Source of the DNA: Bacillota bacterium
Lineage (GTDB): Bacteria > Bacillota > Clostridia > Peptostreptococcales > Anaerovoracaceae
NCBI GenBank assembly: GCA_017433375.1
Contig: JAFRHG010000021.1
Span: 1-64,000, forward strand
Length of the DNA stretch: 64,000 nucleotides
Reading direction: 5' to 3'
A program made the position numbers and the translations under genes. Position 1 is the stretch's first letter, and each line of letters begins with the position of its first letter. Positions 275-63,227 of the stretch are shown here, piece after piece. A model generated the notes under the pieces. It worked only from the letters and a program-made list of their open reading frames with translations. It was not told where the DNA came from and searched no databases.

Positions 275-3157
275 TTATCCTCCATCCGCCGGCGGGTCAG
301 GTGCCGGCGGATCGGGTGCCGGTGGATCGGGTGCCGGCGGATCAGGCGCCTTGGTCGTTGTCGGTGCCTGTGTGGTCGGTGCCTGTGTGGTTACAGGATC
401 CGGCGGGGATATGGTCGTGGACCGTGTGGTGGTCCGGTCTTTCTTGGAGTCTTTCTTATCCCTGGTCTTGACTACTCTGGAGTAGGTTCCCTTGGTGTAG
501 TACTCGCCGGCGATCTTCGTGACGTTGTCCGGCATCTTGGCGAAGTCCTCACGGGGGAGATCCTCGCAGACCTCGGTCATGATGCTGGACCAGAAGCTGG
601 CTGCCGCACCGGACATGGAGGACAATTCGATGTTGACGTCGTTGCCTTCCCAAAGGGCCATGGTGTACTGGGGTGTAAACCCGGCGAACCAGATGTCGTA
701 CTGATCGGATGTGGTACCGGTCTTGCCGCCTACAGGCTGATTGGGGATATCCGCCGAAGAGCCGATGCCGCGGGTGACAACGGAGTGGAGGATATCCGTC
801 ATGATCCAGGCAACGCCGGGATCATAGACCTGGTGGGTTTCCGTCTTCTTCTCCAGCAGGACCTGCCCCTTGTTGTCCAGGACCTTCGTGTAGAAGACCG
901 GAGTCTTGTAGACGCCGCCGTTGGGGAAGGTAGCGTAGGCCGCCGTCAGTTCCAGCGGCGTGATGCCGTCGGTGAGGCCGCCAAGGGCCAGGGCCGCGGC
1001 GTTCAGGTCGTTGGTGGAGCCTTCCTCGTCGATGGAGGTGATGCCGTTCTTCTTCAGCATCTTCAGGGACCAGTTGATGCCGATCTGGTCGAAGACCTTG
1101 ACGGCGCAGACGTTGACCGACTGCTGCACGGCCCGGCGAAGGGTGATCTTGCCGGAATAGCCGCCGCCGGAGTTCTTCGGCCACTGTTTACCGTTACGGT
1201 AAATGGGATGGTCGTTGATGATGCTGCCGGCGGTGATGAACTTGCCCCAGCTGTCGCCGTCGGTCTTATCCAGTTTCATCTTTTTGCCGTCAGCTTCCTT
1301 TTCGAAACTGAGCTGCAGGGCGGGACCGTAAACAGCGATGGGCTTGATGGAGGATCCCGGCTGCCGCGTATGAACGGCACGGTTGTACAGCTGTTTGCCG
1401 GTGGCGCCCCGTCCGCCCATCATGGCCTTGATCTCGCCGGTCTTGTTCTCCATAATGACGCAGGCTGCCTGGGGCTGACGGATCTTCTGCTTCAGGGTGT
1501 ACTTCTCATCATCCACGATCAGCGTATCGCCGTCCTTTTGGAAGAAGTCGGGATAGTCGGTGAAGAACTGTCCGGAAATGACGCAGTTGCCTTTGTCATC
1601 CAATGACTTATATCCCTGGGGTATGGAGATGGCACCGCTTTCGATAAAGTAGAATACACCGTCGTCGTTTTCGTACATGCTCTTGAATTCCACGCTGATA
1701 TCCGGCTCACCGTTGACCTCGATCTCATAGAAGTTGAGGCGCTTTCCGGATTTGATGGTGATGCCGCCGTCATCGTTGGTTTTGTATTCGCTGTCCTTCA
1801 GCTTGAACCGGTCCTTGCTGTCGAAATACTTGTCATAGGATTGGAGCAGGACCACGCCGGTATCGGAGCTGACCAGATCCCCGTCCTCATTGGTCCGGAT
1901 ATAGGAGACGGAGGTGTAGTTGTCGCTGTCTTCGAATTCCTCTTCCACCTTCTTCTGGATCGATGAATCCATGGTGGTGTAGATCTGCAGGCCGGTGGTA
2001 TAGACCATGTTCTGGGCTTCATTCTCCGACAGGTTGTATTTCTCCATCAGCTCTTTCTGCAGCTGGGAGATGGCGTAATCCGCGAAGTAGGAGGAACGGT
2101 CATCGGTAACGAAGCCCAGATTGATCTGATCCTTCAGGCTCTCGTTCAGCGCCTTATCCCGGTCTTCCTCGCTGATCATGCCCAGCTCGCACATATGGTT
2201 GATGGCGTAATTCCGCCGGTCGGCAGAGGCGTCTCCGTTATACAGATAGTTGACGGAGGAACTCTTGTCGATCACCGGCAGGTTGTTGATGGTCTTGTAA
2301 TAGTCGGCGATGACCAGAGCGTAGATATCGGGGGACTGGGGGAGGGCAGCCAGAGAGGCGCACTCCAGAAGATCCAGATCCGATACGCTCTTGTTGAAGT
2401 AGGCCTGGGAGGCCGCCTCCACGCCGTAGGTATTGAAGCCCATATAAATGGTGTTGAGGTAGGCTTCCATGATCTGCTTCTTGGTCAGGTTCTTTTCCAG
2501 TATGATGGTGCAGTACATCTCCGTGATCTTACGGTTCATGGACCGCTGGCTCATGATATCGGCCAGATAGAAGTTACGGGCGAGCTGCTGGGTCACCGTA
2601 CTGGTTCCGCTGATGCTGCCGCCGCCGAAGACGCTGTCTTTGATGGCGCCGATCATACGGATGAAGTTGAAACCGTTGTGGGTCCAGAACTTGTTGTCCT
2701 CGATAGCCACCACGGCGTTGACCATATTCTCCGGAATCTGGTCATACTTGACGATGGTACGGTTTCCCTGGTCAAAGTAAAGATTCTCCATCTCATTGCC
2801 GTCACTGTCGTAGACGATGGAGCGCTGTTTGATCTGGGAATAGATGTCGTCAGTCTGGACATTGGGGGCCTTCAGGAAGATGACGCCGACGAAGATGCCG
2901 ACAGCCAGGACGCCCATGGTTCCGAACAGAAGTAGAAAACTCAGGATGGTCATGACCGGACCGAGCTTTTTCGGCGGGGGAGCATCCACAGCCCGTTTCT
3001 TCCGGGATGAAGAGTTCTTCGCCGGTCTGGTGATCTTGTATACCGCCTTTTTCCGCTTTCTGCCGGCCTTGGAACCGGTGTTTTCCGATCCGGTTCCGTA
3101 ATAGAATTCCGTGTTATTATCTGCATTGCTGCGATTCGTTTTCTTTTGGTCAGCCAA
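275..3157 (-). CDS. Class A penicillin-binding protein (PBP1A family)
   Basis: Bifunctional peptidoglycan synthase, 960 residues, acting on lipid II outside the membrane. After a basic cytoplasmic segment there is one membrane anchor (about residues 70-95). The GT51 glycosyltransferase domain carries EDNKFWTHNG (about 151-160) and GTSTVTQQ. The transpeptidase domain carries SSIK (about 602), SVN (about 680) and KTGT (about 812). The C-terminus is a Thr/Pro/Ala/Asp tail with repeated APDPP. I chose TTG at 3157 because GGAGGG sits 7 bases upstream and a TATAAT box lies at 3194-3189; the longer GTG start at 3238 would be upstream of that promoter. The gene is divergent from comEC and has its own terminator. 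Confidence 0.93.
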   Translation of the reverse strand: MADQKKTNRSNADNNTEFYYGTGSENTGSKAGRKRKKAVYKITRPAKNSSSRKKRAVDAPPPKKLGPVMTILSFLLLFGTMGVLAVGIFVGVIFLKAPNVQTDDIYSQIKQRSIVYDSDGNEMENLYFDQGNRTIVKYDQIPENMVNAVVAIEDNKFWTHNGFNFIRMIGAIKDSVFGGGSISGTSTVTQQLARNFYLADIMSQRSMNRKITEMYCTIILEKNLTKKQIMEAYLNTIYMGFNTYGVEAASQAYFNKSVSDLDLLECASLAALPQSPDIYALVIADYYKTINNLPVIDKSSSVNYLYNGDASADRRNYAINHMCELGMISEEDRDKALNESLKDQINLGFVTDDRSSYFADYAISQLQKELMEKYNLSENEAQNMVYTTGLQIYTTMDSSIQKKVEEEFEDSDNYTSVSYIRTNEDGDLVSSDTGVVLLQSYDKYFDSKDRFKLKDSEYKTNDDGGITIKSGKRLNFYEIEVNGEPDISVEFKSMYENDDGVFYFIESGAISIPQGYKSLDDKGNCVISGQFFTDYPDFFQKDGDTLIVDDEKYTLKQKIRQPQAACVIMENKTGEIKAMMGGRGATGKQLYNRAVHTRQPGSSIKPIAVYGPALQLSFEKEADGKKMKLDKTDGDSWGKFITAGSIINDHPIYRNGKQWPKNSGGGYSGKITLRRAVQQSVNVCAVKVFDQIGINWSLKMLKKNGITSIDEEGSTNDLNAAALALGGLTDGITPLELTAAYATFPNGGVYKTPVFYTKVLDNKGQVLLEKKTETHQVYDPGVAWIMTDILHSVVTRGIGSSADIPNQPVGGKTGTTSDQYDIWFAGFTPQYTMALWEGNDVNIELSSMSGAAASFWSSIMTEVCEDLPREDFAKMPDNVTKIAGEYYTKGTYSRVVKTRDKKDSKKDRTTTRSTTISPPDPVTTQAPTTQAPTTTKAPDPPAPDPPAPDPPAPDPPADGG
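291..349 (-). repeat. 15-bp tandem repeat in the PBP C-terminal tail
   Basis: About four 15-bp units of the type GCCGGCGGATCGGGT encode repeated Ala-Pro-Asp-Pro-Pro. A second short duplication (GTGCCTGTGTGGTCG-like, about 366-395) encodes the Thr/Gln/Ala/Pro stretch before it. Units differ at only a few bases, so copy number could change by slippage. The tail probably spans the cell wall; this is inference. Confidence 0.75.
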
Positions 3158-3181
3158 AATAATACCCTCCGGTTGTAATAC

Positions 3182-3194
3182 TATTCGCATTATA
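3182..3194 (-). promoter_or_regulatory. Extended -10 promoter of the penicillin-binding protein gene
   Basis: On the minus strand TGTTATAAT forms an extended -10 (TATAAT at 3194-3189). I see no good -35 box. The predicted transcript starts near 3182 and leaves a leader of about 25 bases with the GGAGGG ribosome site at 3170-3165. Confidence 0.55.
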
Positions 3195-3310
3195 ACATAC
3201 ATAAACATATAAATGAAATAAGTCCCTTTATTTTTCACACAAAAGTCATTGGTTCAACACATAGTGATGGAAAAATATACCAATGATATGGTAATAATTG
3301 GGATTTTAAT

Positions 3311-5731
3311 ATGATCGTTCGACGGAAACTGACGCTGTGCGCGGGAGCGTACGCGGCGGCTATTATTATATGGGAGTATTTCGGTGCGGGCCCGGCGCTG
3401 GTTTTTGCGGCAGCCGGAGTTGTCTTTTGCGCAAAGGCAACGGCCCGCTCGAGATACTCCGCCTGCGCAGATCCACGCAGCAGAACCAACCGAACCGGCA
3501 AAACAGCCTGGATTCTTCTGGCGGTCTATCTGTGCAGCTTCACCCATCTGCAGCTGCTTACCGTTCAGAGCGATCCCTTTCCCGATCCGGAGGAGAGCGC
3601 GATCCTTGAGGGGATGGTGACCCAGAAGGAGGCGCGCAGGGGAGGGGGATGCCGGCTGGTCCTGCGGGTGGACAGCATAAACGGCGATGCGGTCTCGGGG
3701 AAGAAAGTGCTGATCACCGTATTGGAGGGGGATCCCATCCTCCCCGGCCAGCGGATCCGCTCAGAGGGAAAACTCCGGCTGCCCCAGCCCCGCCGCAATC
3801 CCGGGTGCTTCGATCAGGCCATGTATCTGCGAAGCAAAGGCATTTCCCGGATGATGACGGCGGAATGCATCCGGGTCATCGACGGAGCGGCATCGCCCAT
3901 ACGTGTCCGTCTGTTTCAGGGCAAAGAACGATTTCTTCAAGCATTGGAAGAACACACCGATGCCTCCACGGCGGACATGATGCAGGCTGTTCTCTTCGGG
4001 GAAAAGGCCTGTCTGGATGAGGAGACCATGGAGGTCTTCCAGCGGAACGGTACGGCCCATATCCTGGCGGTCAGCGGCCTTCATATCGGGATCCTATACG
4101 CCGCCATGGTGCGGTTTCATCTGCTCCTGATCAGCATGCTTTCCCTGAAGAGCGGGCCGTTGAGGAATGCCTTCTTCTACGGACTGGTGGGGTTGTTTTT
4201 CGCCGGCTATACCATGCTGGCCGGATTCTCGCCTTCCGTAGTCCGGGCGGTGCTGATGATCCTTCTCCATATGTTCGCCCAAATGACCGGCCGGCGGTAC
4301 GATCTGTGCTGCGCGGCCCTGGCTGTTGGGCTTGCCGCCATCGCGGCAAATCCCTACACGCTGTTTCAGACAGGCTTTCAGATGAGTTTTCTGGCGGTCT
4401 TTTCCCTGTCCTTATTCCTGCCCCTCATCAGCCGGTGGTATACGGGGGCGCTGATCGCCGGGCTTGCCATTCAGCTGGGACTCGGCCCCTATATCCTCTG
4501 GCAGTTCGGGTGGATCAGCTGGATCGCGGTATTCGTCAGCGTTCCCGTGGTCCTGCTGGCCGTGCTGCTGGTACCCGCCGGCATGGGATCCCTCTGCCTT
4601 ACCATGCTGTCAGAAATCATGGCCGGAACCCTTGGGGCCAGCTCGTTAACCGGTATCCTGGACCGGTTCACCGGCCTCCTGTGCGACCTCCTGGTCCGGC
4701 TGAACATGGCCTGCTGCATTGACCAGGTCACCTCTCTTACCGCAGCAGCTCCGCCCCTGGTGCTGATCCTTCTTTATTACCTCGGTCTGTTCGTCTTCGC
4801 CTCGGAAAGCGGCCGCCTCCTGTTCATCCGAAAGCAGCAGGGGAGGATCGCGGTCCTGTTCATCATCATTCTGACCATCAGCGCAGTGACGGCCGCCGCC
4901 ATGGATGACAGTTACCGGAAACTGGACCTGGTCTTCGTGGATGTGGGGCAGGGGGACTGCATGCATATCCGCACGGAGGGAAAGAACTACCTGATCGACG
5001 GCGGGGGCAGCGAGGACTATAACCTGGGGAAGAAAACCCTGCGGCCCTACCTCCTCAAAAACGGCGTTTCCCATGTTGATGTCGCCTTCGTCACCCATCT
5101 GCACACGGACCACTACAAAGGGATCTGCGAACTGGCCAGGGAGGGCATGGTGCGCCGGATCATCGTCTCCGAATCCAACCGGCCCAGGCAGGCGGAGATC
5201 TGCCGGGAGACGGGCCTTCCCCCGGACCGGATCACCTATCTGCGGGCCGGCCACCGGATCCGCCTGTCCCGGGACGCTGTCCTTGACGTCCTCTGGCCTC
5301 TGGCGGATACCCGGGACAATGGGGTTGCCGCCGATGAAGACGAGAACGCCACCAGCCTGATCATGAAGGTGACCGTAAACGGGGTCAGCCTTCTGGCCAC
5401 CGGCGACCTGGGCGAAGAAGGGGAGCAGGAGCTGCTGCGGCTCTATGGATCTGGGCCTGCTCTTCAGGCGGACATCCTCAAGGTGGGCCATCACGGCTCC
5501 CGGTACAGCACCTCCGTTGCCTTTGCAAAGGCAACTGCCCCTGATGCCGCCGTCATTCAGGTGGGAGAGCGAAACGTATACGGCCATCCAACACCGGAAG
5601 TCCTCTCCCGGCTGGATTTCCTGGGCATCCCCGTCTTCCGCACCGATCGGCAGGGAGCCGTGGGCATGAAACTCCAATCCGGAAAGGTGAGGGAGGTAAG
5701 GACAATGATTGACGATAAGGCTTCCGATTAG
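3311..5731 (+). CDS. comEC: ComEC/Rec2-type DNA uptake channel protein
   Basis: Membrane channel of natural transformation that passes single-stranded DNA into the cytoplasm; 806 residues, normal for the family. Several N-terminal membrane segments come first. The Competence domain carries GTAHILAVSGLHIG (about 245-260). After many hydrophobic segments comes a C-terminal metallo-beta-lactamase-like domain with VGQGDC (about 545), LIDGGG and the metal motif THLHTDH (about 595-601). The gene appears intact, so DNA import is a fair prediction if the other com genes exist elsewhere. It contains a perfect 20-bp palindrome (5516-5535) built from the repeated genome motif. holA follows 31 bases downstream. 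Confidence 0.93.
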   Translation: MIVRRKLTLCAGAYAAAIIIWEYFGAGPALVFAAAGVVFCAKATARSRYSACADPRSRTNRTGKTAWILLAVYLCSFTHLQLLTVQSDPFPDPEESAILEGMVTQKEARRGGGCRLVLRVDSINGDAVSGKKVLITVLEGDPILPGQRIRSEGKLRLPQPRRNPGCFDQAMYLRSKGISRMMTAECIRVIDGAASPIRVRLFQGKERFLQALEEHTDASTADMMQAVLFGEKACLDEETMEVFQRNGTAHILAVSGLHIGILYAAMVRFHLLLISMLSLKSGPLRNAFFYGLVGLFFAGYTMLAGFSPSVVRAVLMILLHMFAQMTGRRYDLCCAALAVGLAAIAANPYTLFQTGFQMSFLAVFSLSLFLPLISRWYTGALIAGLAIQLGLGPYILWQFGWISWIAVFVSVPVVLLAVLLVPAGMGSLCLTMLSEIMAGTLGASSLTGILDRFTGLLCDLLVRLNMACCIDQVTSLTAAAPPLVLILLYYLGLFVFASESGRLLFIRKQQGRIAVLFIIILTISAVTAAAMDDSYRKLDLVFVDVGQGDCMHIRTEGKNYLIDGGGSEDYNLGKKTLRPYLLKNGVSHVDVAFVTHLHTDHYKGICELAREGMVRRIIVSESNRPRQAEICRETGLPPDRITYLRAGHRIRLSRDAVLDVLWPLADTRDNGVAADEDENATSLIMKVTVNGVSLLATGDLGEEGEQELLRLYGSGPALQADILKVGHHGSRYSTSVAFAKATAPDAAVIQVGERNVYGHPTPEVLSRLDFLGIPVFRTDRQGAVGMKLQSGKVREVRTMIDDKASD
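5516..5535. repeat. Perfect 20-bp palindrome of the dispersed motif inside comEC
   Basis: GTTGCCTTTGCAAAGGCAAC is two head-to-head copies of GCAAAGGCAAC sharing the central GC. It lies in the C-terminal coding part of comEC and encodes Val-Ala-Phe-Ala-Lys-Ala-Thr, using two GCA alanine codons that are rare in the neighbourhood. Confidence 0.9.
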
Positions 5732-5762
5732 TACAATGATGGCTGAGGAGGACGCCTGCGCT

Positions 5763-6875
5763 ATGGCCTATGGACGACCGGATGGACCGCACGCCTTCGT
5801 GCGGCTGGAAAAGGATCTGAAGGAGGGGAATATTCCCTCCCTGGTTTTGCTGTGCGGCCAGGAGGCCTATCTGACCGATCATTACGCCCAGACTGTGGTG
5901 AACCGGTTCACGGAACCGGCTTCCCGGCAGATGGATCTGGCGGTGATCCCCCGGGAGAAGCTGACCAACGAGGAGATCCGCATGGCGGCGGAGACGCTGC
6001 CCCTGATGTCGGCCAGAAAGGTCATCCAGATCAGCGGCTTCATCAACCAGAACGGAAAGTACCCGAAGGCCTACGAACAGGAGAAGGAAGACATCGATGG
6101 TTTCCTCGCTTTCCTGAAGGAGATCCCTGAGGGTGTGTTGGTCCTGCTGACCGCGGACGCGCCCCTGACCACCGGTGACTACAATAAGCAGAGCGACGGA
6201 CGTAAGCTGAAAAAGCTGCAGACGGCGGTCAAAAAAGCCGGCGGTACGACCTATGACTTCACGCCCCTTGACCGGGCGACCCTGCGCAGCTTCGTGGCCA
6301 AGCGGTTTCAGCAGGCGGGCAAGACCTGCACAAGGGACGCGTTGCAGACCATCCTCAACGACAGCGGATATGAAAACCGGTATGTGGACTACGACCTGTA
6401 TGCACTGGAGAACGATCTGAAGAAGATCATCGCCCACAGCGGGGATTCACCCCTGGTCACGGCTGAGGACCTGGAGGGGACCCTGAGCGTCAACCCGGAG
6501 AACAATGTCTTCGCCATGCTGGACGCCATCGGCCGGGGACGGAAGGACCAGGCCCTGCTCCATCTGAACACTCTCCTGGAGGAGGGGGAATCGGAGTTCG
6601 GCATCCTGTCCGGGATCGTCCGTCAGCTGGAGCTGATGCTGGCGGCCCGGGAACTGCAGGAGGAGGGGAGAACCGTCGCCCAAAGCGCGGCCTACCTTGA
6701 GAAAGAGGAAAAGACCGCCAGGTTCCGGGCGAAAAAGGCGGCGGAAACGGCCGCCCGTATCCCCGCCGTCCAGCTGCGGCGCATGCTGAAGGATGCCTTC
6801 GCCGTGGAGGACCACATCAAGTCCGGACTCATGGAGAGCCGTCTGGCTCTGGAGTATTTTATTTCTGAAGCCTAG
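5763..6875 (+). CDS. holA: DNA polymerase III delta subunit
   Basis: Clamp-loader delta subunit, which opens the beta sliding clamp; 370 residues, near the usual length. Recognised from the overall HolA pattern: an N-terminal segment LVLLCGQEAYLTDHYA, the middle YDFTPLDRATLRSFVAKRF, and the C-terminal collar region with NVFAMLDAIGRGRKDQAL and a long helical end. It follows comEC by 31 bases, the common comEC-holA order in Firmicutes. The ATG at 5763 was chosen for the GAGGAGG site about 11 bases upstream; ATGs at 5736 and 5739 are possible alternatives. Confidence 0.88.
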   Translation: MAYGRPDGPHAFVRLEKDLKEGNIPSLVLLCGQEAYLTDHYAQTVVNRFTEPASRQMDLAVIPREKLTNEEIRMAAETLPLMSARKVIQISGFINQNGKYPKAYEQEKEDIDGFLAFLKEIPEGVLVLLTADAPLTTGDYNKQSDGRKLKKLQTAVKKAGGTTYDFTPLDRATLRSFVAKRFQQAGKTCTRDALQTILNDSGYENRYVDYDLYALENDLKKIIAHSGDSPLVTAEDLEGTLSVNPENNVFAMLDAIGRGRKDQALLHLNTLLEEGESEFGILSGIVRQLELMLAARELQEEGRTVAQSAAYLEKEEKTARFRAKKAAETAARIPAVQLRRMLKDAFAVEDHIKSGLMESRLALEYFISEA

Positions 6876-6888
6876 AGAGGGAGGGTCC

Positions 6889-7779: not shown

Positions 7780-7803
7780 TACAAATCAGGCAGGGGAAAA
7801 CCA

Positions 7804-7832
7804 TTGTATGCAAGATAAGAATCTGTTAGAAT
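7804..7832 (+). promoter_or_regulatory. Candidate promoter of the NuoE/NuoF/NuoG-like operon
   Basis: TTGTAT (7804-7809), a 17-base spacer and TAGAAT (7827-7832) precede the operon at 7874. The -10 is good (5 of 6); the -35 is weak (3 of 6). Confidence 0.5.
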
Positions 7833-7873
7833 GACAGAGCAGGTTATAACTATTTTATGGGAGGAAAATGTCA

Positions 7874-10149: not shown

Positions 10150-10167
10150 GAGGGAGGAGGAAAGACA

Positions 10168-13846: not shown

Positions 13847-15154
13847 ATGACAGCATCTGTAGCGATATCCGGGATAGGCGTCATCTGCGCCCTGGCGGGG
13901 ATGGCGATCCTGATCTTCAAACGGATTTCTCCCATTATCATCGGACCCCTGGCGGCTCTGCTGGTGTGCGTCACCAGCCAGCTGCCAATTCTGTCCGGCA
14001 TCAAGGACACTTACCTGAGTGGAGTAGGAGGCTTTTTTACATCCTATTTCCTCATCTTTTTGCTGGGCAACATCTTCGGCAATATCTATCAGAACTCCGG
14101 TGCGGCGGCGAGCATCGGCATCGTGGTATCCCGGGCCTTCGGGCCCAAGCGGTGCATGCTGGCCTGCCTGATCTCCGCGGCCATCCTGAGCTACGGGGGG
14201 ATCAACAGTTTTGTCATCATTTTTTCCGTCTATCCCATCGCGCTGAAGCTCTTTGAGGAGGCGGATCTGCCCACCTATCTGCTGCCGGGCATCGTCTGCG
14301 GCGGTATGTGGACCTTTGCCATGACCGGGCCCTTCACGCCCCAGATCCCCAACGTGGTGTCCATGGAGTATCTGGGCACGCCGGCCTATGCCGGACTCCT
14401 GCCTGGACTTTCCGGCGCGGCGGTCATGTGCGTCTCCATCGTCCTCTTCATGAACTACTGCGGCAAAAAGGCAAAGGCAAGGGGAGAGCACTTCCACTGG
14501 CCGGAGAAGGTCAAGCGGGTGGAGGAGGACCAGGATAAGCCCCATTTCGTGCTGGCCCTGCTGCCCATCATCGTCGTCCTGCTGGTCTTCAACATCGTCA
14601 AGTGGGACATCGTGGTGTGCCTGCTCATCGGCATCATTCTTGCCCTGATCCTGTTCATGAAGTACCTGCCCCGGTCGGAAATGCTGGACATGTTTAATTC
14701 CGCCGCCACATCATCGATCATCGTTATCATCAACACGGCAGTCATCGTGGGCTTCGGTTCCGTGGTCAAGGAGACGCCCTTCTATGATTTCGCCACCCAG
14801 GTGCTCATGTCATCCCACGCCAACCCCTATGTGGTGGCGGCGGTAGGCGCCAACGTCTTCGCCGGCCTTCTGGGCTCCGCTTCCGGCGGGATCGCCCTAA
14901 TGTACGAGACCCTGAGTGACACCTTCCTGGATTACGCATCCCAGGGATACAACATCGAATACATTCACCGGCTTTGCGCCGACGGTTCCGGCGGACTGGA
15001 TTCCCTCCCGTGGAACGGGTCCATCGTTTCCGTCTTTGCCATCTGCAATACGACGCACAAGCTGTCCTACAAGTATAATTTCGTAACCTGCCTGGTGATC
15101 CCGGTGGCGGCGACCATGCTGGTGGCCCTGCCCATCTGTATCATCACCGGATAG
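13847..15154 (+). CDS. GntP-family organic-acid permease
   Basis: Membrane carrier of 435 residues with about 12 hydrophobic segments, resembling the gluconate:H+ symporter (GntP) family. Typical pieces are SYGGINSFVIIFSVYPIALKL and PYVVAAVGANVFAGLLGSASGG. I used the ATG at 13847 behind GGGAAGAGG; upstream in-frame starts lack a ribosome site. A -10-like TATGAT lies at 13776-13781. The CoA-transferase gene 44 bases downstream suggests that the cargo is a short-chain (hydroxy)carboxylate that is then CoA-activated; that is inference. Confidence 0.75.
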   Translation: MTASVAISGIGVICALAGMAILIFKRISPIIIGPLAALLVCVTSQLPILSGIKDTYLSGVGGFFTSYFLIFLLGNIFGNIYQNSGAAASIGIVVSRAFGPKRCMLACLISAAILSYGGINSFVIIFSVYPIALKLFEEADLPTYLLPGIVCGGMWTFAMTGPFTPQIPNVVSMEYLGTPAYAGLLPGLSGAAVMCVSIVLFMNYCGKKAKARGEHFHWPEKVKRVEEDQDKPHFVLALLPIIVVLLVFNIVKWDIVVCLLIGIILALILFMKYLPRSEMLDMFNSAATSSIIVIINTAVIVGFGSVVKETPFYDFATQVLMSSHANPYVVAAVGANVFAGLLGSASGGIALMYETLSDTFLDYASQGYNIEYIHRLCADGSGGLDSLPWNGSIVSVFAICNTTHKLSYKYNFVTCLVIPVAATMLVALPICIITG

Positions 15155-24846: not shown

Positions 24847-24866
24847 CAAAGGCAGAGTTGCCTTTG
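24847..24866. repeat. Inverted pair of the dispersed motif between gcvT and gcvH
   Basis: CAAAGGCA (24847-24854) and TGCCTTTG (24859-24866) form an 8-bp stem with loop GAGT. No T-run follows, so it is an intercistronic hairpin rather than a clear terminator. Confidence 0.7.
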
Positions 24867-28108: not shown

Positions 28109-29557
28109 ATGAAAACGAACTACGATCTGATCATCATCGGCGCCGGCCCCGGCGGATACGTGGCAGCCATCAAGGCGGCCAAGGCCGGACTGGACACGGC
28201 GGTCATCGAATCCCGGCGGGCAGGGGGGACCTGCCTGAACCGGGGGTGCATACCCGCAAAGGCAATGATCCATGCCGCCGAAGTCTACCGGCAGTCCCTG
28301 GAGGGCGCCGCCTTCGGCATCCATACCCAGGGCGTCGCCTTCGACTACGGGGAGATCCTGTCCTACAAGCAGGAGACCATGGAGACCCTGGTGCAGGGTG
28401 TGGAACAGCTGCTCAAAGGCAACGGCGTCACCCTCATCAATGGCTTCGGCCAGCTGATTTCCCCTGAGAAGGGCGAAAACCGGGTAAATGTGTCCTTGTT
28501 TGCCAATGAGGGGGAAAATCCCTCAGAAACGATTCTGACCGCTCAGAACGTGATCCTGGCCACGGGATCCAAGCCGGCTGTCCTGCCCGTTCCCGGCATG
28601 GACCTGCCTCAGGTGCTGGACAGCGACGGCCTGTTCGCCCTGGACCGCGCGCCAAAGAGCCTGGTGATCATCGGCGGCGGCGTCATCGGCGTGGAATTCG
28701 CCACAGTCTTTTCCGCCCTGGGCACCAGGGTGACCATACTGGAGGCCCTGCCGAAGATCCTGGATAATTTCGATAAGGAGATCTCCCAGAACCTGAAGAT
28801 GATCCTCAAAAAGCGGGGCGTGGACATCCACACCGGGGCTATGGTCCAGTCCGCAGAGGCCGCCCGGACCGAGGATGGAGAAGGAGTCCGTTGCCTTTAC
28901 ACGGAGAAGGACAAGGAACAGGCGGCGGAAGGGGAGTTCCTGCTGTGCGCTGCCGGCCGCACGCCAAATCTGGACGGCCTCTTCGCCGAAGGCGCCGCTC
29001 CGGAGATGAACGGCCGCTTCATCGCCGTGGATGAGGAGTTCCGCACGTCCATTCCCGGCGTATGGGCCATCGGCGATGCCACCGGGGGCATTCAGCTGGC
29101 CCACGCGGCCTCCGCCCATGGCATCCGTGTCATCGAAACCATCACCGGGGAGGAGCAAGCCCAGGATCTGTCCCTGATCCCCGGCTGCGTCTATACGGAT
29201 CCGGAGATCGCCTCCGTGGGAATCACGGAAGGGACGGCGAAGGAGCAGGGTATCGACGTCCTGGCGGGCAAACACATCATGAGCGCCAACGGCAAGTCCC
29301 TCATCACCAGAGAGGAGAGGGGATTCATCAAGGTCGTGGCCGACGCTTCCGACCTGCGGATCCTGGGTGCCCAGATGATGTGCGCCAGGGCCACGGACAT
29401 GATCGGCGAATTCACCACGGCTATGGCCAACGGGCTGACCGTTCCCGATCTTCTGCGGGGCGTGCGCGCCCATCCCACCTATAACGAGGGGATCGCCGAG
29501 GCCCTGGAGGATGTGACCGGGGAATCCCTGCACACCATGCCCCGGCGGAAACGGTAG
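28109..29557 (+). CDS. lpdA: Dihydrolipoyl dehydrogenase (L protein)
   Basis: FAD enzyme that reoxidises the dihydrolipoyl H protein with NAD+; 482 residues. N-terminal FAD motif IIIGAGPGGYVAAIKAAKAG, redox disulfide GGTCLNRGCIPAKAM (about 40-54), NAD motif VIIGGGVIGVEFATVFSALG, second FAD motif VWAIGDATGG, and C-terminal AHPTYNEGIAEAL with the catalytic His. The last gene of the glycine cleavage cluster, 46 bases after gcvPB. Confidence 0.95.
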   Translation: MKTNYDLIIIGAGPGGYVAAIKAAKAGLDTAVIESRRAGGTCLNRGCIPAKAMIHAAEVYRQSLEGAAFGIHTQGVAFDYGEILSYKQETMETLVQGVEQLLKGNGVTLINGFGQLISPEKGENRVNVSLFANEGENPSETILTAQNVILATGSKPAVLPVPGMDLPQVLDSDGLFALDRAPKSLVIIGGGVIGVEFATVFSALGTRVTILEALPKILDNFDKEISQNLKMILKKRGVDIHTGAMVQSAEAARTEDGEGVRCLYTEKDKEQAAEGEFLLCAAGRTPNLDGLFAEGAAPEMNGRFIAVDEEFRTSIPGVWAIGDATGGIQLAHAASAHGIRVIETITGEEQAQDLSLIPGCVYTDPEIASVGITEGTAKEQGIDVLAGKHIMSANGKSLITREERGFIKVVADASDLRILGAQMMCARATDMIGEFTTAMANGLTVPDLLRGVRAHPTYNEGIAEALEDVTGESLHTMPRRKR

Positions 29558-29668: not shown

Positions 29669-32314
29669 ATGGAAAAAATCGGACTGAACAGATTGAGGGA
29701 GATGTTCCTCAGTTATTTTGAAGGGCAGGATCATTACCGGAGAGCCAGTTATTCCCTGATCCCGCAGAACGACAAGAGCCTGTTGCTCATCAACGCGGGA
29801 ATGGCCCCCTTAAAGCCCTATTTCGCCGGTCTGGAGACGCCTCCGTCAAAGAGGATGACCACATGCCAGAAGTGCATACGCACCGGTGACATCGACAACG
29901 TGGGGTTCACGGACCGCCACGGCACCTTCTTTGAGATGCTAGGGAACTTCTCTTTCGGCGATTATTTCAAGCTGGATGCCATCCGGTGGAGCTGGGATTT
30001 TTCCACCAACGTGTTGAAGATGCCCCCGGAGAAACTCTGGGTCACCATATACGAAGAGGATGAAGAGGCATACGGCATCTGGCACGATATCATCGGCATT
30101 CCCGACGAGAAGATCGTCCGCCTGGGCAAGGGGGACAACTTCTGGGAGATCGGCACCGGCGGCCCCTGCGGACCCTGTTCGGAGCTGTATTTCGACCGGG
30201 GCGAAGAGCACGGCTGCGGCAGCCCTGACTGCAGGCCGGGCTGCGACTGCGACCGTTACGTGGAATTCTGGAATCTGGTCTTCACCCAGTTCAACAAGGA
30301 GGAGGACGGAACCTATACGGATCTGCCCCATCCCAATATCGACACGGGCCTTGGCCTGGAGCGGCTGGCCTGCATCATGCAGGACACCAGCTCCATCTTC
30401 GATGTGGATACCATCCAGTACATCCTGAAAGAGGTCGTCCGGGTCAGCGGCGTCCGCTACGAAAACGGCAACGCGCCCACCGACGCATCCATCCGCATCA
30501 TCACCGACCATATCCGGTCCATGGTATTCCTCATCAGCGACGGCGTCCTGCCGGGCAATGAGGGCAGGGAATACGTGCTGCGCCGGCTCATCCGGCGGGC
30601 TGCCCTCCACGGACAGGTCCTGGGTATCGAGGGCTCCTTCCTGGCCGCCCTCAGTGAAAAGGTCGTCGACATTTCCGGCACCGCCTATCCGGAGCTGGAA
30701 AAGATGCGTACCTTCATCCGCAAGGTCATCTTCGCCGAGGAGGACCGCTTCGCCGAGACCATCGACCAGGGCATGAGCATCATCGGCCAGTACATGGGCG
30801 AGATGCAGGCCAATGGGTCTACCGTCCTTGACGGCGACAAGGCCTTCAAGCTCCATGACACCTACGGATTCCCCATCGACATGACCAGGGAAATTCTGGC
30901 CGAATCCGGCTACGAGGTGGATCTGGACGGCTTCAACAAGGCCATGGAAGAGCAGAAGGCCCGCTCCCAGAAACAGCAGGAGATGGAAGGCGCAGGCTGG
31001 GAAGAAGCCGCGGCGGATTTCGTCTTCGAAGGGGAGACGGAGTTTGTGGGCTATGATATGGTGGGCTGCCGGTGCAATATCCGGGCCATGCTCATCGATC
31101 AGGAGCCTGTGGATGAAGCCAGAGAGGGGCAGGAAGCCCTGGTCATCCTGGACAGGACGCCCTTCTACGCGGAAAGCGGCGGCCAGTGCAGCGACACGGG
31201 CATGATCTATAACGACAACGGCAGCGCCTTTGTCGATCACGTGGAAAAGTACCAGAAGGTCTACGTGCATCATATCCGGATGCGCAGCGGCACCCTGCGG
31301 ACCGGTGAAGGAATACTGGCCGGATATAACGAAATACCCAGAAACCGGACGGCGGCCAACCATACGGCTACCCATCTGCTGCATAAGGCCCTTCAGGAAA
31401 CCCTGGGCGAACACGTGAAGCAGGCGGGATCTTCGGTCACCCCCGACGGCCTCCGCTTCGACTTCAGCCACTACGAGGGGATGACGGCCAATGAGATCAA
31501 ACAGGTCGAGGAAATGGTCAACGACAAGATCGGCCACTTCATCGACGTCAACACCCAGATCATGAGCGCCAAGGAAGCCTTCCAGACGGGGGCCATGGCC
31601 CTCTTCGGCGAGAAGTACGGCGATCAGGTCAGGGTAGTCAGCGTCGGCGACTACAGCAAAGAACTCTGCGGCGGAACCCACGTGAAGAACACGGGACAGA
31701 TCGGCGCTTTCCGGATCCTGAGTGAATCGGGCGTGGCCTCCGGCGTGCGCCGGATCGAGGCCATCACCGGCCTGGGGATCCTGGACCACTACCGGCGGAA
31801 CGAGACCATGCTCAACGATCTCACCGAAACGATGAAAGCCAACCGGGAAACGGTCCGCGACCGGGCCCAGACCCTGGTGAAGGAGATCAAGAGCCTGCGG
31901 AAGGAGCTGGAATCCCAGAAGCAGGCGAAGATGAGCAGCGGACTGGATTCCATTCTGCAGGAAGCGAAGGATGTGGGCGGCGCCCGCCTGGTCTGCCACC
32001 GGTTCAACGACCTGAACATCGAGGACCTGCGCACCATGGCGGACAGTGTCCGTTCCAGGGAGAAGAACATCGTCATGGTCTTCGCGGCCGTGCTCAAGAA
32101 TAAGGTCACCTTCATGATCTCCGTCAGTGACGATCTGACGGAGAAGGGCGTCCACGCCGGCAGGATGATCAAGGAAGTAGCCAAGGCGGCCGGCGGAGGC
32201 GGCGGCGGAAAGGCAAATATGGCTATGGCGGGAGCCAAGGATCCCTCCAAAGTCGACGTTGCCTTTGCCAAGGCGGAAGAAATCCTTTGCAAAAATATGG
32301 AAGAATTTTCGTAA
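29669..32314 (+). CDS. alaS: Alanyl-tRNA synthetase
   Basis: Charges tRNA-Ala; 881 residues, normal length. The catalytic domain holds RRASYSLIPQNDKSLLLINAGM and CQKCIRTGDIDNVGFTDRH; the editing domain has zinc motifs HTATHLLHKAL and ELCGGTHVKNTG; the C-Ala region ends in a Gly-rich GGGGGGKANMAMAGAK linker. It is followed by ireB and ruvX, the classic Firmicute order. Two copies of the dispersed motif (32209 and 32259) lie in its last 110 bases. Confidence 0.97.
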   Translation: MEKIGLNRLREMFLSYFEGQDHYRRASYSLIPQNDKSLLLINAGMAPLKPYFAGLETPPSKRMTTCQKCIRTGDIDNVGFTDRHGTFFEMLGNFSFGDYFKLDAIRWSWDFSTNVLKMPPEKLWVTIYEEDEEAYGIWHDIIGIPDEKIVRLGKGDNFWEIGTGGPCGPCSELYFDRGEEHGCGSPDCRPGCDCDRYVEFWNLVFTQFNKEEDGTYTDLPHPNIDTGLGLERLACIMQDTSSIFDVDTIQYILKEVVRVSGVRYENGNAPTDASIRIITDHIRSMVFLISDGVLPGNEGREYVLRRLIRRAALHGQVLGIEGSFLAALSEKVVDISGTAYPELEKMRTFIRKVIFAEEDRFAETIDQGMSIIGQYMGEMQANGSTVLDGDKAFKLHDTYGFPIDMTREILAESGYEVDLDGFNKAMEEQKARSQKQQEMEGAGWEEAAADFVFEGETEFVGYDMVGCRCNIRAMLIDQEPVDEAREGQEALVILDRTPFYAESGGQCSDTGMIYNDNGSAFVDHVEKYQKVYVHHIRMRSGTLRTGEGILAGYNEIPRNRTAANHTATHLLHKALQETLGEHVKQAGSSVTPDGLRFDFSHYEGMTANEIKQVEEMVNDKIGHFIDVNTQIMSAKEAFQTGAMALFGEKYGDQVRVVSVGDYSKELCGGTHVKNTGQIGAFRILSESGVASGVRRIEAITGLGILDHYRRNETMLNDLTETMKANRETVRDRAQTLVKEIKSLRKELESQKQAKMSSGLDSILQEAKDVGGARLVCHRFNDLNIEDLRTMADSVRSREKNIVMVFAAVLKNKVTFMISVSDDLTEKGVHAGRMIKEVAKAAGGGGGGKANMAMAGAKDPSKVDVAFAKAEEILCKNMEEFS

Positions 32315-34453: not shown

Positions 34454-34555
34454 GGTTTTTTTATCCTTGCAACATTTTCGGCCCCAGAGGCGGGGGAGCA
34501 GGGGAGGGATTGCCTTTTCAGCCTAATTTACATTAAATATTAAGGAATATTAAGT

Positions 34556-38819: not shown

Positions 38820-38852
38820 GGAACGTAAGAATAGAGGAAAGGCAATAGAACT

Positions 38853-48187: not shown

Positions 48188-48247
48188 TAACAAAACGAGG
48201 CCGTTGCCTTTGCATTCCATGTCAAACGCAACAACCTCGTTTGTTAT
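48188..48247 (-). terminator. Terminator of the AI-2E exporter operon, containing the dispersed motif
   Basis: AACGAGG (48194-48200) pairs with CCTCGTT (48235-48241), with GTTGC/GCAAC pairing further in; on the minus strand CCTCGTTTTGTT follows. The motif GCAAAGGCAACGG forms one side (48204-48212 core). Confidence 0.65.
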
Positions 48248-54811: not shown

Positions 54812-54813
54812 CC

Positions 54814-56706
54814 TCAGACCCTCCGGAACAGCTTTTCCAGGTCACGGCGGCTCATTTTCACGATGGTTGGCCGGCCGTGGGGGCAGGAATAGGGATTGCC
54901 GCAGGCGAAAAGCTGCTGCAGCAGGGCATCCGCCTCCTCAGGATGGAGGGCATCCCCCGCCTTCACCGCGGATTTGCAGGACCGGACGATCAGCCGGTCC
55001 AGAGAGGCGAACCGGCTCAGATCCGGATGCTCCTCCAGCTCGATGAAGAACTGGCGCAGGAACTCCTCCGCCTCGCCTTCCGCCAGAAAGGCCGGGATCT
55101 CCCGGACCAGATAGACCCGTTCCCCGAAATTCTCAATATCGTAGCCCATGCGGCGCACGTAATCGATCCAGTCTTCCTCGGCGGCCTCCACATCGGCGGA
55201 AACGGGGAACTGCAAAGGCACCAGCATGGCCTGCCTCACCTTCTCCTCTTCCCGGTACTGGCGCAGGAACCGCTCATAGTAGATCCGCTCGTGGGCGGCG
55301 TGCTGGTCGATCAGGTACAGGGACTCCCCGTCGGTGGTGATCAGGTAGGTTTCAAAGGCGATCCCGATGATGCGAAGAGCCGGGATGTCCAGCCGCATCC
55401 GGCCTGCCGGGCCGGTTTCGGCCACTTTTGGCGCCGGTTCCTCAGGTTCGGCTTCCCGTCTCATTGTTTCCAATACATATTTTACGTCAACCTGTTCACC
55501 GGAGCCGGATCTGGCATCAGCCGGATCATCCTTGCGGCGGAAGGGGTCCGTATCAGCCCTCGAACTAACGGCAGCGGCGGCTATGAGGCCGTCTTTAGCC
55601 TCACCGGCACTGTCCTGCCCGCCCGGTACTGCTCCCGCAGCGTCCTCATCTCCGGCCGTGTTCAGGTCCTCCCCGGCCGGGGTTGCCTTTGCCAGCCTCT
55701 CCCCGTCCACCCGGGGCACGGACTGGGCGCCCATGAGGGCCTTCCTCACGGCTCCCTCGATGAAATCCTCGATCTGGAAGGGATCGTCGAAGCGGATCTC
55801 CTTCTTCGTGGGGTGCACGTTCACGTCCAGGATCTCCGGCGGCACGGACAGGAACAGGAATGCCAGGGGGAAACGGCCCGTAAACAGCCGCTCCTTATAG
55901 GCCTTCTCCAGTCCCCTCTCCATGGAACCGGAGGAGACGATCCGCCCGTTGACACAGAAGATCTGCCGGTTCCGGGAGGCCGATGACAGCCCCGGCGAGG
56001 ACACGAATCCCCGGACCACCCAGCCGTTCATCCGGTCGTCCACGGGAATCAGATCCTTTTCCAGGTCCCGGCCGTAGATCCGCAGGATGTTGTCCAGGAT
56101 ATTCCCCTTTCCCGAGGTCTGGATCACGTCCTTTTTGCCGCTGATCAGCCGGAACTTCACATCCGGGTAGGCCAGGGCCATGCGGGAGAGCAGATCGGTG
56201 ATCCGGCGCCCTTCCGCGCTGTCCGAACCCAGGAATTTGCGCCTTGCCGGCAGGTTATAAAACAGGTCGTGGACCGTGATTGTCGTGCCGTGGGGACAGC
56301 CGATGGCCGTGTTGGAGAGGACTTCACTGCCCTCCACCACCAGATGGCGGCCCGTTTTCTCCTCCGCCGTCTTGGTGATCATCTCCACCCGGCTGACGGC
56401 GCAGATGCTGGCCAGGGCCTCCCCGCGGAAGCCCAGGGTGCCGATGGCGTCCAGATCCTTTTCCTTTTCGATCTTGCTGGTGGCGTGGCGGCGGAAAGCC
56501 AGCTCCACATCCTCCCAGGGAATGCCGCATCCGTCGTCGGTTACCCGCAGATACTCCTTGCCGCCGCCCCGGAGGGAGACGGTGATGGAGCCGGCCCCGG
56601 CGTCCAGGGCGTTTTCCACCAGTTCCTTGACGATGGAAACCGGCCGGTCGATGACTTCGCCGGCGGCGATCTTATCCGCTACGTTTTTGTCCAGTACTCT
56701 GATCAT
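54814..56706 (-). CDS. mutL: DNA mismatch repair protein MutL
   Basis: 630 residues. GHKL ATPase: ELVENALDAGAGSITV, DDGCGIPWEDVELAFRRHATSKI and GFRGEALASI. A low-complexity linker (about 350-440) separates it from the C-terminal dimer/endonuclease domain, with DQHAAHERIYYERF and the C-terminal ACGNPYSCPHGRPTIV typical of MutL homologues with nuclease activity. It overlaps mutS by 4 bases. Confidence 0.96.
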   Translation of the reverse strand: MIRVLDKNVADKIAAGEVIDRPVSIVKELVENALDAGAGSITVSLRGGGKEYLRVTDDGCGIPWEDVELAFRRHATSKIEKEKDLDAIGTLGFRGEALASICAVSRVEMITKTAEEKTGRHLVVEGSEVLSNTAIGCPHGTTITVHDLFYNLPARRKFLGSDSAEGRRITDLLSRMALAYPDVKFRLISGKKDVIQTSGKGNILDNILRIYGRDLEKDLIPVDDRMNGWVVRGFVSSPGLSSASRNRQIFCVNGRIVSSGSMERGLEKAYKERLFTGRFPLAFLFLSVPPEILDVNVHPTKKEIRFDDPFQIEDFIEGAVRKALMGAQSVPRVDGERLAKATPAGEDLNTAGDEDAAGAVPGGQDSAGEAKDGLIAAAAVSSRADTDPFRRKDDPADARSGSGEQVDVKYVLETMRREAEPEEPAPKVAETGPAGRMRLDIPALRIIGIAFETYLITTDGESLYLIDQHAAHERIYYERFLRQYREEEKVRQAMLVPLQFPVSADVEAAEEDWIDYVRRMGYDIENFGERVYLVREIPAFLAEGEAEEFLRQFFIELEEHPDLSRFASLDRLIVRSCKSAVKAGDALHPEEADALLQQLFACGNPYSCPHGRPTIVKMSRRDLEKLFRRV

Positions 56707-59354: not shown

Positions 59355-59363
59355 GAGCACTCC

Positions 59364-60554: not shown

Positions 60555-60580
60555 TTTACATTTCCTCCTCTATAAATCAT

Positions 60581-61381
60581 TTACGTCAGGTCACGATGAG
60601 AGGCGCTGACCACCTGGTCAACCTCCTCATCACTGATCCCATTATCGCACAGTTTCTTCTCCATGAAAAGGAGATATTCGATATTTCCCTTGGTGCCCCG
60701 GACCGGCGAAAAATCAAGGCCGGAGGGATGCAGTCCGCAGTCCTCTCCGTAGCCGATCACCTGCCGGATCACCTGCCGGTGGACCTCCGGATCCCGGACG
60801 ATCCCCTTCTTTCCCACCTGCTCTCTGCCCGCCTCAAACTGGGGCTTCACCAGGCAGACCAGACGGCCCCCGTCCCGCAGCAGATCAGCGGCGACGGGAA
60901 GGACCAGGCGCAGGGAAATGAAGGACACATCGATGGAAATGAAATCCACGTCCCTGCCGATGGCATCCACGTCCAGATAGCGGACATTGGTCTTTTCCAT
61001 GTTGGTGATCCGGGGATCGTTGCGCAGCTTCCAGTCCAGCTGGCCGTATCCCACATCGATGCACCAGACGTGGTCGGCCCCGTTCTGCAGCATGCAGTCG
61101 GTGAAACCTCCGGTGGAGGCTCCGATATCCACCGCCTTCACCCCGGCAAGATCCAGGTCAAAGGCTTCAATGGCCCGGGCCAGCTTCAGCCCGCCCCGGC
61201 TCACGTAGGGACAGATATCCTCCTTCACCGCGATCTCCGCCTCCCGGTCCACCTGAGTGCCCGGCTTATCGGTGAGCTGTCCGTCCACGGTGATCAGACC
61301 GGCCATGATGGCCGCTTTTGCCTTTTCTCTGGAGGGGAACAGTTTCCGTTCCACCAGAAGAAGATCAAGCCTGTCCTTCAA
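60581..61381 (-). CDS. tlyA: TlyA family rRNA methyltransferase
   Basis: 266 residues. N-terminal S4 RNA-binding domain (DRLDLLLVERKLFPSREKAKAAIMAG) followed by a FtsJ-type methyltransferase with SAM motif VDIGASTGGFTDCML and the acidic site FISIDVSFISLRLVLP. Homologues make 2'-O-methylcytidine in 16S/23S rRNA, and some are described as haemolysins. It overlaps dxs by 17 bases, the usual Firmicute order ispA-dxs-tlyA. Confidence 0.93.
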   Translation of the reverse strand: MKDRLDLLLVERKLFPSREKAKAAIMAGLITVDGQLTDKPGTQVDREAEIAVKEDICPYVSRGGLKLARAIEAFDLDLAGVKAVDIGASTGGFTDCMLQNGADHVWCIDVGYGQLDWKLRNDPRITNMEKTNVRYLDVDAIGRDVDFISIDVSFISLRLVLPVAADLLRDGGRLVCLVKPQFEAGREQVGKKGIVRDPEVHRQVIRQVIGYGEDCGLHPSGLDFSPVRGTKGNIEYLLFMEKKLCDNGISDEEVDQVVSASHRDLT

Positions 61382-63227
61382 GTTCCTTCGCTATCCTTTC
61401 CGCGACGGACTGTCCGTCCATGGCGTACCGCCGGTACAGTTCATCCGCCTTGCCGTGCTCGATAAAGGTATCCGGCCAGCCAAAGGCCAGGTGTTTCGTC
61501 TCTCCGCCGTTGAGATGGGCCCCGATAGCCTCTCCGATGCCGCCGGAGAGCACGTTGTCCTCGATGGTGGCGATCAGACGATGGGACGCGGCGTCCTCCT
61601 CAAGAAGGGCCGTATCCAGGGGAGACGCTGTGCCGATGTTGACCACAGAGGCGCTGATCCCCTTCTCCGCCAGAATATCCGCCGCCTCCAGAGCGTGGGC
61701 CGTCAGGGGGCCCAGGGCCCAGATGGACACATCGGTTCCCTCCCGGAGCTTCTGCGCCTTGCCCCGGACGAATTCAGGAAGGCCCGGAATTGCCTTTGCC
61801 TCCCCTCTCGGGTAGCGGATGGCGCAGGGTCCGTCCCACTTCGCCGCAAAGGCAAGCATTTCCTTCAGCTGCTCCCCGTCGGCCGGCGCCAGCAGGGTCA
61901 GATTGGGCATGGCCCGAAGATAGGACACGTCGAAAATGCCGTGGTGGGTCTCGCCGTCGGCGCCCACTACGCCGGCACGGTCCAGGCAGAAAGTCACGGG
62001 CAGATCCTGCAGGCACACATCCTCCAGAATCTGGTCGAAGGCCCTCTGCAGGAAGGTGGAATAGACCACCACGAAGGGCTTGTCCCCCGCCGCGGCCAGT
62101 CCGGCGGCGAAGGTCGCCGCATGTCCCTCGGCGATGCCCGTATCAAAAATGCGGTCCGGGAAACGGTCCCGGAAGACGTTCATCCCCGTTCCGTCGATCA
62201 TGGCCGCGCTCACGGCGATGATCCGGGGGTCGTCTTCCGCCAGCTCCGTCAGCGTCTGGCCGGCGATGCCGGACCAGCTGGGGCTTTTGCGCCCGGATTC
62301 GGGACGGCCCGTTTCCGGATCGAAGGGGCCGATGCCGTGGAAGATGTCCGGCTGCTCCTCCGCGTGGGAGTATCCCTTACCCTTGGTGGTCAGGGTGTGC
62401 ACCAGCACGGGGCCGTCGATGGCCCGGGCCATCTCCAGCACCTGGCAGAGTTCCTTGATGTTGTGCCCGTCCACGGGGCCGATGTACTTGAATCCCAGTT
62501 CTTCGAAGACGATGCCTTCGATCACGGCGTATTTGATCCGGTCCTTGGCGGACTGCAGGCCGGAAACCAGGTCGTCGCCGATGACCGGCAGCCTGGACAT
62601 TCCCCGTTTCAGGGACGCTTTCAGGGCGTTGTATTTCTCTGTGCTGCTCAGTTTGACCAGATGGCGGGAAAGTCCCCCCGTATTGGGGGCGATGGACATG
62701 CCGTTGTCGTTGAGCACCACGATGAGATCGCTGTTCAGCTGGCCGGCGTTGTTCAGGGCCTCAAAGGCCGCGCCGCCGGTCATGGCCCCGTCGCCGATGA
62801 CGGAAACCACGTGATAGTCCTCCCCCGCCCGGTCGCGGGCAATGGCCATGCCCAGACCCAGGCCGATGGAGGTGCTGCTGTGTCCCGTATCGAAGACATC
62901 GTATTCGCTTTCGCAGCGCTTGGGGAATCCGCTGAGTCCGTCCAGCTGGCGCAGGGAATCGAACTGATCCGCCCTGCCCGTCAGGATCTTGTGCACGTAG
63001 GACTGGTGGCCCACGTCCCAGATCAGTTTGTCTCTGGGCGCGTCAAAGGTGCGGTGCAGGGCGATGGCCAGCTCTACCACGCCCAGATTGGACGCCAGGT
63101 GGCCGCCGCTCCTGCTCACCGTCTCCACGAGAAAATCACGGATCTCAAAGGAGAGCAGTTCCAGCTCATCCATGTCCATTGTCTTCAGGTCCTCGGGGAA
63201 ATGATGCTTCAGAAGATAATCGTTCAT
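61365..63227 (-). CDS. dxs: 1-deoxy-D-xylulose-5-phosphate synthase
   Basis: First enzyme of the MEP isoprenoid pathway: pyruvate + glyceraldehyde-3-phosphate gives DXP; 620 residues. SGGHLASNLGVVELAIALH and WDVGHQSYVHKILTGR at the N-terminus, thiamine diphosphate motif GDGAMTGGAAFEALNNAG, and the transketolase-like DRAGVVGADGETHHGIFD. It starts 4 bases after ispA. Two copies of the dispersed motif (61790, 61847) are 49 bases apart in opposite orientation. Confidence 0.96.
   Translation of the reverse strand: MNDYLLKHHFPEDLKTMDMDELELLSFEIRDFLVETVSRSGGHLASNLGVVELAIALHRTFDAPRDKLIWDVGHQSYVHKILTGRADQFDSLRQLDGLSGFPKRCESEYDVFDTGHSSTSIGLGLGMAIARDRAGEDYHVVSVIGDGAMTGGAAFEALNNAGQLNSDLIVVLNDNGMSIAPNTGGLSRHLVKLSSTEKYNALKASLKRGMSRLPVIGDDLVSGLQSAKDRIKYAVIEGIVFEELGFKYIGPVDGHNIKELCQVLEMARAIDGPVLVHTLTTKGKGYSHAEEQPDIFHGIGPFDPETGRPESGRKSPSWSGIAGQTLTELAEDDPRIIAVSAAMIDGTGMNVFRDRFPDRIFDTGIAEGHAATFAAGLAAAGDKPFVVVYSTFLQRAFDQILEDVCLQDLPVTFCLDRAGVVGADGETHHGIFDVSYLRAMPNLTLLAPADGEQLKEMLAFAAKWDGPCAIRYPRGEAKAIPGLPEFVRGKAQKLREGTDVSIWALGPLTAHALEAADILAEKGISASVVNIGTASPLDTALLEEDAASHRLIATIEDNVLSGGIGEAIGAHLNGGETKHLAFGWPDTFIEHGKADELYRRYAMDGQSVAERIAKELEGQA

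Follow-up and report, generated by a model that had tools for sequence, protein, structure and literature searches.

A strand-symmetric, clade-restricted word in the genomes of a clostridial genus as a candidate DNA-uptake sequence

DNA-uptake (self-recognition) sequences are placed in only two families of proteobacteria by the accessible part of a 2025 paper (PMC12616744), which agrees with the statement in an initial annotation of the DNA treated here that they are known only from the Neisseriaceae and Pasteurellaceae. The uptake signal sequence (USS) of the Pasteurellaceae is presented in the same excerpt as forming dialects along the phylogeny around a constant inner core (PMC12616744). 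For the DNA uptake sequence (DUS) of the Neisseriaceae the available portion of the source gives several dialects with a strict shared core, each kept within particular branches of the species phylogeny (PMC3630211). The cyanobacterial highly iterated palindrome HIP1 (GCGATCGC) is a short word present in very many copies, the function of which is called unsettled in the accessible sections of a further paper (PMC4390886). In Veillonella, a diderm relative, a search for an uptake word found none of at least 10 bp present at least 100 times, according to the accessible text (PMC5397411). Here we describe a word with the core GCAAARGC that is repeated across 64 kb of DNA from uncultured gut Clostridia (the window: bases 1-64000 of contig C10 of genome G000, a 1.954 Mb assembly of 38 contigs that is 89% complete) and throughout that genome, and that is a candidate uptake sequence of a lineage read as monoderm.

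In the window the 8-mer AAAGGCAA occurs 40 times (23 on the plus and 17 on the minus strand) while 1.59 copies are predicted by a third-order Markov model built on the window, and the 9-mer CAAAGGCAA occurs 22 times (13 and 9) where 0.32 are predicted. The field occupies 1587..61855 on both strands, its last 8-mer lying at 61848-61855, with the consensus GCAAAGGCAA(C/T)(G) and a mean spacing of AAAGGCAA of about 1.5 kb. Both the massive over-representation and this span had been reported in the initial annotation; its count of 21 exact 9-mers was correct for the minus strand and one short on the plus strand, where it gave 12. The enrichment of AAAGGCAA is 25-fold, and among the 24 top 8-mers of the window no unrelated word with at least five copies exceeds 8.5-fold. 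The effect is not limited to the window. In the whole of G000, AAAGGCAA is present 568 and 564 times by strand (1,132 in total) against 73 and 61 for the reversed word, and CAAAGGCAA 376 and 413 times against 20 and 18.

The repeated unit in G000 is (G)CAAAGGCAA(C/T). The 12-mer GCAAAGGCAACG, which had been put forward as the repeated oligomer, has only five exact copies in the window and is therefore not the repeated unit. In a 421-kb sample of G000, made up of the window and 20 further stretches, the consensus is GCAAAGGCAA(C/T)G; the fixed AAAGGCAA is preceded by G (65%) and C (66%) and followed by C (50%) and G (43%), and GCAAAGGCAAC has 54 copies where 0.2 are expected. Of the single changes within AAAGGCAA, A for G at the fourth base alone is well populated (15 copies, 0.17 expected). 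The remaining inner single changes have 0-4 copies each, and the outer G and C and the last C are free to vary. The non-palindromic CAAAGGCAA set makes up the top over-represented words of the genome.

The lineage is read as monoderm because secretin and Omp85 were found in none of the 49 genomes of the genus, the control genomes being positive in 6 of 14 and 7 of 14 cases respectively. An identity within the Negativicutes or another diderm group was rejected on the same result and on the relatives of the window's alaS found in named genome records, which are five metagenome-assembled genomes (MAGs) assigned to Firmicutes, Clostridiales or Bacillota, one of them from roe deer jejunum. The core word is common to most of the genus: 34 of the 49 genomes carry 191-545 copies of GCAAAGGC per Mb (rich) and 15 carry at most 126 (poor). 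In a sample of the order drawn evenly across 134 genera (297 genomes, 283 of them outside the genus) every genome of another genus stayed below 191 per Mb. The maximum there, about 167 as calculated from rounded sizes, belongs to a genome (G265) in which the reversed word is almost as common. The GC content of the sampled genomes is 0.42-0.59 in the rich and 0.41-0.54 in the poor; these ranges overlap and GC content therefore does not explain the split.

The two bases that follow the core differ between clades. They were counted in stretches from 46 of the 49 genomes, the amount of DNA per genome ranging from 3 to 421 kb and giving weak counts where small. After GCAAA(A/G)GC in G000 the bases are AA in 130 copies, the next commonest pair having 8, and AA also leads in G024 (6, next 2). 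AG leads in G006, G015, G067, G019 and others, and TG leads in G065 (30, next 3) and G010 (5/5). The enriched word of stretch L012 is the TG form CAAAGGCTG (12 against 0.3). Several genomes, including G012, G014, G017 and G029, show no clear 3' preference. G034 was placed in the AA group by its whole-genome count of AAAGGCAA (450 against 56). Its first four stretches were masked, and in a readable 20 kb there are only two copies, below the whole-genome expectation. These clade-specific 3' extensions look like the dialects of uptake sequences.

On a comEC protein tree of 40 species the 29 rich and 11 poor species form the two sides of one branch with a Shimodaira-Hasegawa-like approximate likelihood ratio test (SH-aLRT) value of 92. 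This is a single change of state, and none of 500 shuffles gave a number as low. G000, G034 and G024 form one group on this tree (support 91). The tree leaves out five rich and four poor species without a comEC match; it is a single-gene tree from a short search with a midpoint root, and gain and loss of the motif are therefore indistinguishable on it. The cut between rich and poor, in copies per Mb, was placed at the gap between 126 and 191 and was chosen after the tree had been seen. It replaced a label based on the ratio to the reversed word (seven changes, one of 500 shuffles as low) because that label misjudged the AA-dialect species and because the reversed word contains CpG. As the reversed word is not a neutral control, densities were compared too.

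The motif enrichment is a property of the DNA, and the proposal of the initial annotation that selection acts on DNA rather than protein is borne out by synonymous shuffles in G000 and its relatives. A simple caller found 330 genes in the 421-kb sample. Within them AAAGGCAA occurs 208 times against 16.5 +- 3.5 after synonymous codons had been shuffled within each gene (12.6-fold) and CAAAGGCAA 137 times against 7.4 (18.5-fold); four control words gave 0.8-2.0-fold. The AAAGGCAA sites occupy all six frames, with 8.7 per 10 kb between genes and 5.5 within them, the intergenic density probably being overstated because the caller missed at least an EamA-family gene (6793-7779, containing the motifs at 7661 and 7766) and a GcvP-like gene (26359-28062). 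In 16 motif-rich relatives the core lies 2.4-5.3-fold above the same shuffle. In nine motif-poor relatives it lies at 0.4-2.1-fold in eight and at 3.1-fold in G030, where there are eight sites.

Sites are also kept at orthologous positions. In aligned DNA of ten species pairs, compared in one direction with some species in more than one pair (AAAGGCAA being used for G000/G034), the exact core was kept at 51 of 104 sites against 1,548 of 5,749 for letter-permuted words (odds ratio 2.6, p 2e-6). A looser count, with the R position free and 16 overlapping pairs taken in both directions, gave 168/281 against 4042/16329. In nine pairs read in both directions, sites that differ by one base give 60 counts, of which 35 are at R, where change is tolerated; switches at R are counted twice, which leaves about 17-18 events there against 25 at all other positions together. 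The enrichment is thus genome-wide, at the level of DNA, strand-symmetric, restricted to a clade and dialect-forming, and orthologous sites are kept above control words.

The reading that we rate most likely, and to which we give about an even chance, is that the motif is a DNA-uptake sequence in a monoderm lineage, because its non-palindromic form, strand symmetry, genome-wide spread, near-strict core, clade-specific extensions and single change of state match the pattern of the DUS and USS. As far as the accessible parts of the sources go, it shares with the USS a non-palindromic word of about 9-10 bp, high enrichment and dialects that follow the phylogeny (PMC12616744), and with the DUS branch-confined dialects on a strict core (PMC3630211). 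It differs from the USS in sequence and in a host without secretin or Omp85, and from the DUS in its core, GCAAARGC against CTG. The proposed receptor would sit at the cell surface as part of the competence or type IV pilus apparatus and bind double-stranded DNA in which GCAAA(G/A)GC is followed by the clade-specific 3' extension, AA in G000. Recognition of the motif during uptake would favour the DNA of kin, recombination of kin fragments would act as a drive that accumulates and maintains copies, and changes in the receptor may create dialects and so part lineages.

The word may be rarer in phage DNA, which is not free of it. Two prophage stretches contain 6 GCAAAGGC against 15.0 predicted from host density (P 0.007, in a small and partly related sample), and with six small portal loci added the count is 9 against 20.7 (P 0.003), the GCAAAAGC form being excluded throughout. 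The prophage stretches are of 18 kb each, share gene sizes and look related. Of their 50 called genes, 10 were tested against PHROGs and all 10 matched phage families, among them terminase, portal, head, tape measure, integrase and endolysins.

If the word is an uptake sequence, uptake specificity requires neither secretin nor outer membrane. The larger claim, on which we are slightly more reserved and hold the chance to be a little under even, is that this would be a third independent origin of sequence-specific uptake, in monoderm Clostridia that lack an outer membrane, where three or more dialects would mark boundaries to gene flow between gut species. An independent monoderm case would separate the essentials of uptake-sequence systems from proteobacterial history, and the uptake reading would predict which gut Clostridia exchange genes. 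The 49 species (34 rich, 15 poor, several dialects) would then offer a natural experiment for a receptor search by co-evolution. No uptake sequence in Clostridia was reported in the titles and abstract openings searched, preprints and most subscription literature lying outside the search, and within the same limits no paper turned up that contains GCAAAGGCA.

G000 has comEC in the window and, elsewhere in the genome, DprA together with operons for a ComGA-like ATPase and for a type IV pilus. The ComG-like operon (L028:4150-7913) encodes T2SSF, small proteins including a DUF4860 protein, and the ComGA-like ATPase, named from its size and context. Across the genus this ATPase falls into two groups, which share 68-76% and 51-55% identity with the G000 protein. 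The pilus operon (L016:10763-18990, on contig C3) encodes a pilin with an N-methyl motif, PilB, PilT, PilC, a prepilin peptidase and PilM, along with genes without a Pfam match. It sits in Clostridia without secretin, and a strong PilB match was found in only four of the 49 genus genomes. ComEA was found over the cut-off in 43 of the 49.

A number of results weigh against an uptake function. To our knowledge, sequence-specific DNA uptake is not known in monoderms. ComEA (TIGR00426) was not found over the cut-off in G000 or its sister G034, nor in four other genomes of the genus; in G000 and G034 the gene may have been lost, may have diverged or may be hidden by masking or a gap. Motif richness is not associated with any of ComEC (29/34 rich, 11/15 poor), ComEA (29/34, 14/15), DprA (30/34, 15/15) or the ComGA-like gene (20/34, 7/15, p 0.54), with p values of 0.30-0.65 overall in a comparison blurred by MAG incompleteness. 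The rich genome G029 (98% complete, 682 GCAAAGGC) is without a ComGA-like gene, and G005 (91% complete) is without a strong PF00437 ATPase of any kind. The DUS-like role suggested in the initial annotation gains from the clade dialects and the single change of state on the comEC tree and loses from the competence genes, which do not separate rich from poor. Conservation is also uneven. G000/G034, the sole AA-dialect pair compared, kept 1 of 7 AAAGGCAA against 22 of 112 permuted words, and no excess was seen in G017/G012 (4/15) or G006/G019 (1/5). Finally, close inverted pairs of uptake sequences are common at terminators in Neisseria, whereas close inverted motif pairs are rare in G000. A terminator role for the word was rejected on this scarcity and on similar site densities in tandem, convergent and divergent gaps (9.2, 6.4 and 8.0 per 10 kb).

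The next best reading, less likely but a real possibility, is that the word is a binding site for a chromosomal protein, either HIP1-like or one that organises the chromosome: a putative non-polar nucleoid, repair or segregation protein would bind GCAAARGC, and selection would keep about one site per 2-5 kb. This would cover the enrichment at the level of DNA, the equal use of both strands, the excess between genes, the conservation of sites and the restriction to a clade without invoking uptake, and it sits well with competence genes that do not track the motif. HIP1 is likewise a highly iterated short word, as the accessible part of the source has it (PMC4390886), but HIP1 is a palindrome with known methyltransferases, whereas the clostridial word is non-palindromic and has clade dialects. 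Shifts of the 3' extension between clades are unexpected for a conserved housekeeping protein, although a co-evolving one could produce them. The spacing of sites in G000, moreover, is approximately Poisson (mean 1,615, coefficient of variation 0.94) and shows no regular interval. Should the word not serve uptake, it would still mark a sequence-specific chromosomal system whose state changed once in the genus, as judged from one gene tree.

A word linked to methylation or restriction, which a methylase (type I, III, IIG or BREX-like) would modify and which would be retained or amplified for that reason, is in our view improbable. Methylase targets do include non-palindromic words with an R position, but 8-10 bp is long for a contiguous methylase site and restriction normally selects for avoidance of sites. 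The motif is a near-strict sequence of that length with graded flanks and dialects. In favour, HIP1 is linked to methyltransferases in the part of the source available (PMC4390886).

Very unlikely, and contradicted by the strand counts, is a polar chromosomal signal, either Chi for AddAB/RecBCD or a translocase guide like the FtsK-orienting polar sequences (KOPS) or SpoIIIE recognition sequences (SRS). These too are short over-represented words of similar density, and the density of the motif lies within the range of Chi, but Chi and KOPS/SRS are polar and the clostridial word is without clear polarity. In G000 AAAGGCAA lies in the direction of the gene in 111 cases and opposite in 96; by GC skew the leading strand has 138 copies and the lagging strand 109 (p 0.07), and for GCAAAGGC the numbers are 68 and 69, called genes being about 84% leading by length. 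The 16 rich relatives appear to lean towards polarity, with 312 core sites leading against 259 lagging and 312 sense to the gene against 195 antisense. Genes, however, are 78% leading by length, far above the 55% leading share of the sites, and codons account for the sense excess, since after the synonymous shuffle the antisense core is the more enriched (5.2-fold against 2.9-fold). The lack of Chi- or KOPS-like polarity noted in the initial annotation thus extends from G000 to its relatives. An artefact of codon use, Ala-Lys-Ala amino-acid motifs or base composition is the least credible explanation: frame 0 sense is the commonest class in most relatives examined, so that the core count is partly protein-driven, and shuffle means are 3.9-17.2 per sample in the 16 rich relatives, but an artefact is contradicted by the excess over synonymous shuffles in G000, by the excess of sense, antisense and intergenic copies alike, and by counts that are far lower both in sister species within the genus and in the 283 genomes sampled outside it.

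Within the window the gene for the DNA-uptake channel, comEC (3311..5731, plus strand), has Competence (PF03772, E 4.3e-42), DUF4131 and metallo-beta-lactamase domains and carries three copies of AAAGGCAA, two of them overlapping as an inverted pair. The first forms part of GCAAAGGCAAC near the 5' end (3431..3441, plus strand, 8-mer at 3433). The overlapping pair is a perfect 20-bp palindrome, GTTGCCTTTGCAAAGGCAAC, at 5516..5535 on both strands, and is the sole occurrence of TGCCTTTGCAAAGGCA in the 421-kb sample. Directly 3' of comEC lies a holA-like gene for DNA polymerase III delta (5709..6875, plus strand). Other inverted pairs are found at the 3' end of alaS (29669-32314), with starts 50 bp apart (32209..32266), and in dxs (61365-63227), with starts 58 bp apart (61790..61855). 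Two AAAGGCAA words (14467, 14473) overlap at 14467..14480 on the plus strand, and single motifs lie in a pyridine nucleotide-disulphide oxidoreductase gene (28109-29557; motif 28258..28265, plus strand) and in mutL (54814-56706; motif 55683..55690, minus strand). Six 8-mers of the window fall outside called genes, and removal of the two in the EamA-family gene leaves those at 24858..24865, 34510..34517 and 48204..48211 on the minus strand, the last in the full form GCAAAGGCAACGG, and at 38838..38845 on the plus strand. Three of the six positions listed as intergenic in the initial annotation (24858, 34510, 48204) are among these, and the other three (13821, 32699, 42986) are inside called genes, 13821 just after a doubtful TTG start and 42986 in a doubtful gene call.

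The longest motif-free stretch of the G000 sample, 10.8 kb, lies mostly within an open reading frame of more than 4,200 codons (L017:2-12610, cut at the start of the stretch); it was not recognised as a mobile element, no family search having been made on this frame. Separate from the motif are TTGGCAGAGT words in L012 and G065, which form clustered alternating repeats. Words of the type TGGCAGAGT, in alternating orientation and mostly at steps of 31-42 bp, are clustered at L012:4740-4914, 13092-13267 and 21338 and at L086:14672-16824. Two of the clusters in L012 have a like layout and lie about 8.35 kb apart, and the TGGCAGAGT clusters look like a repeated element unrelated to the motif.

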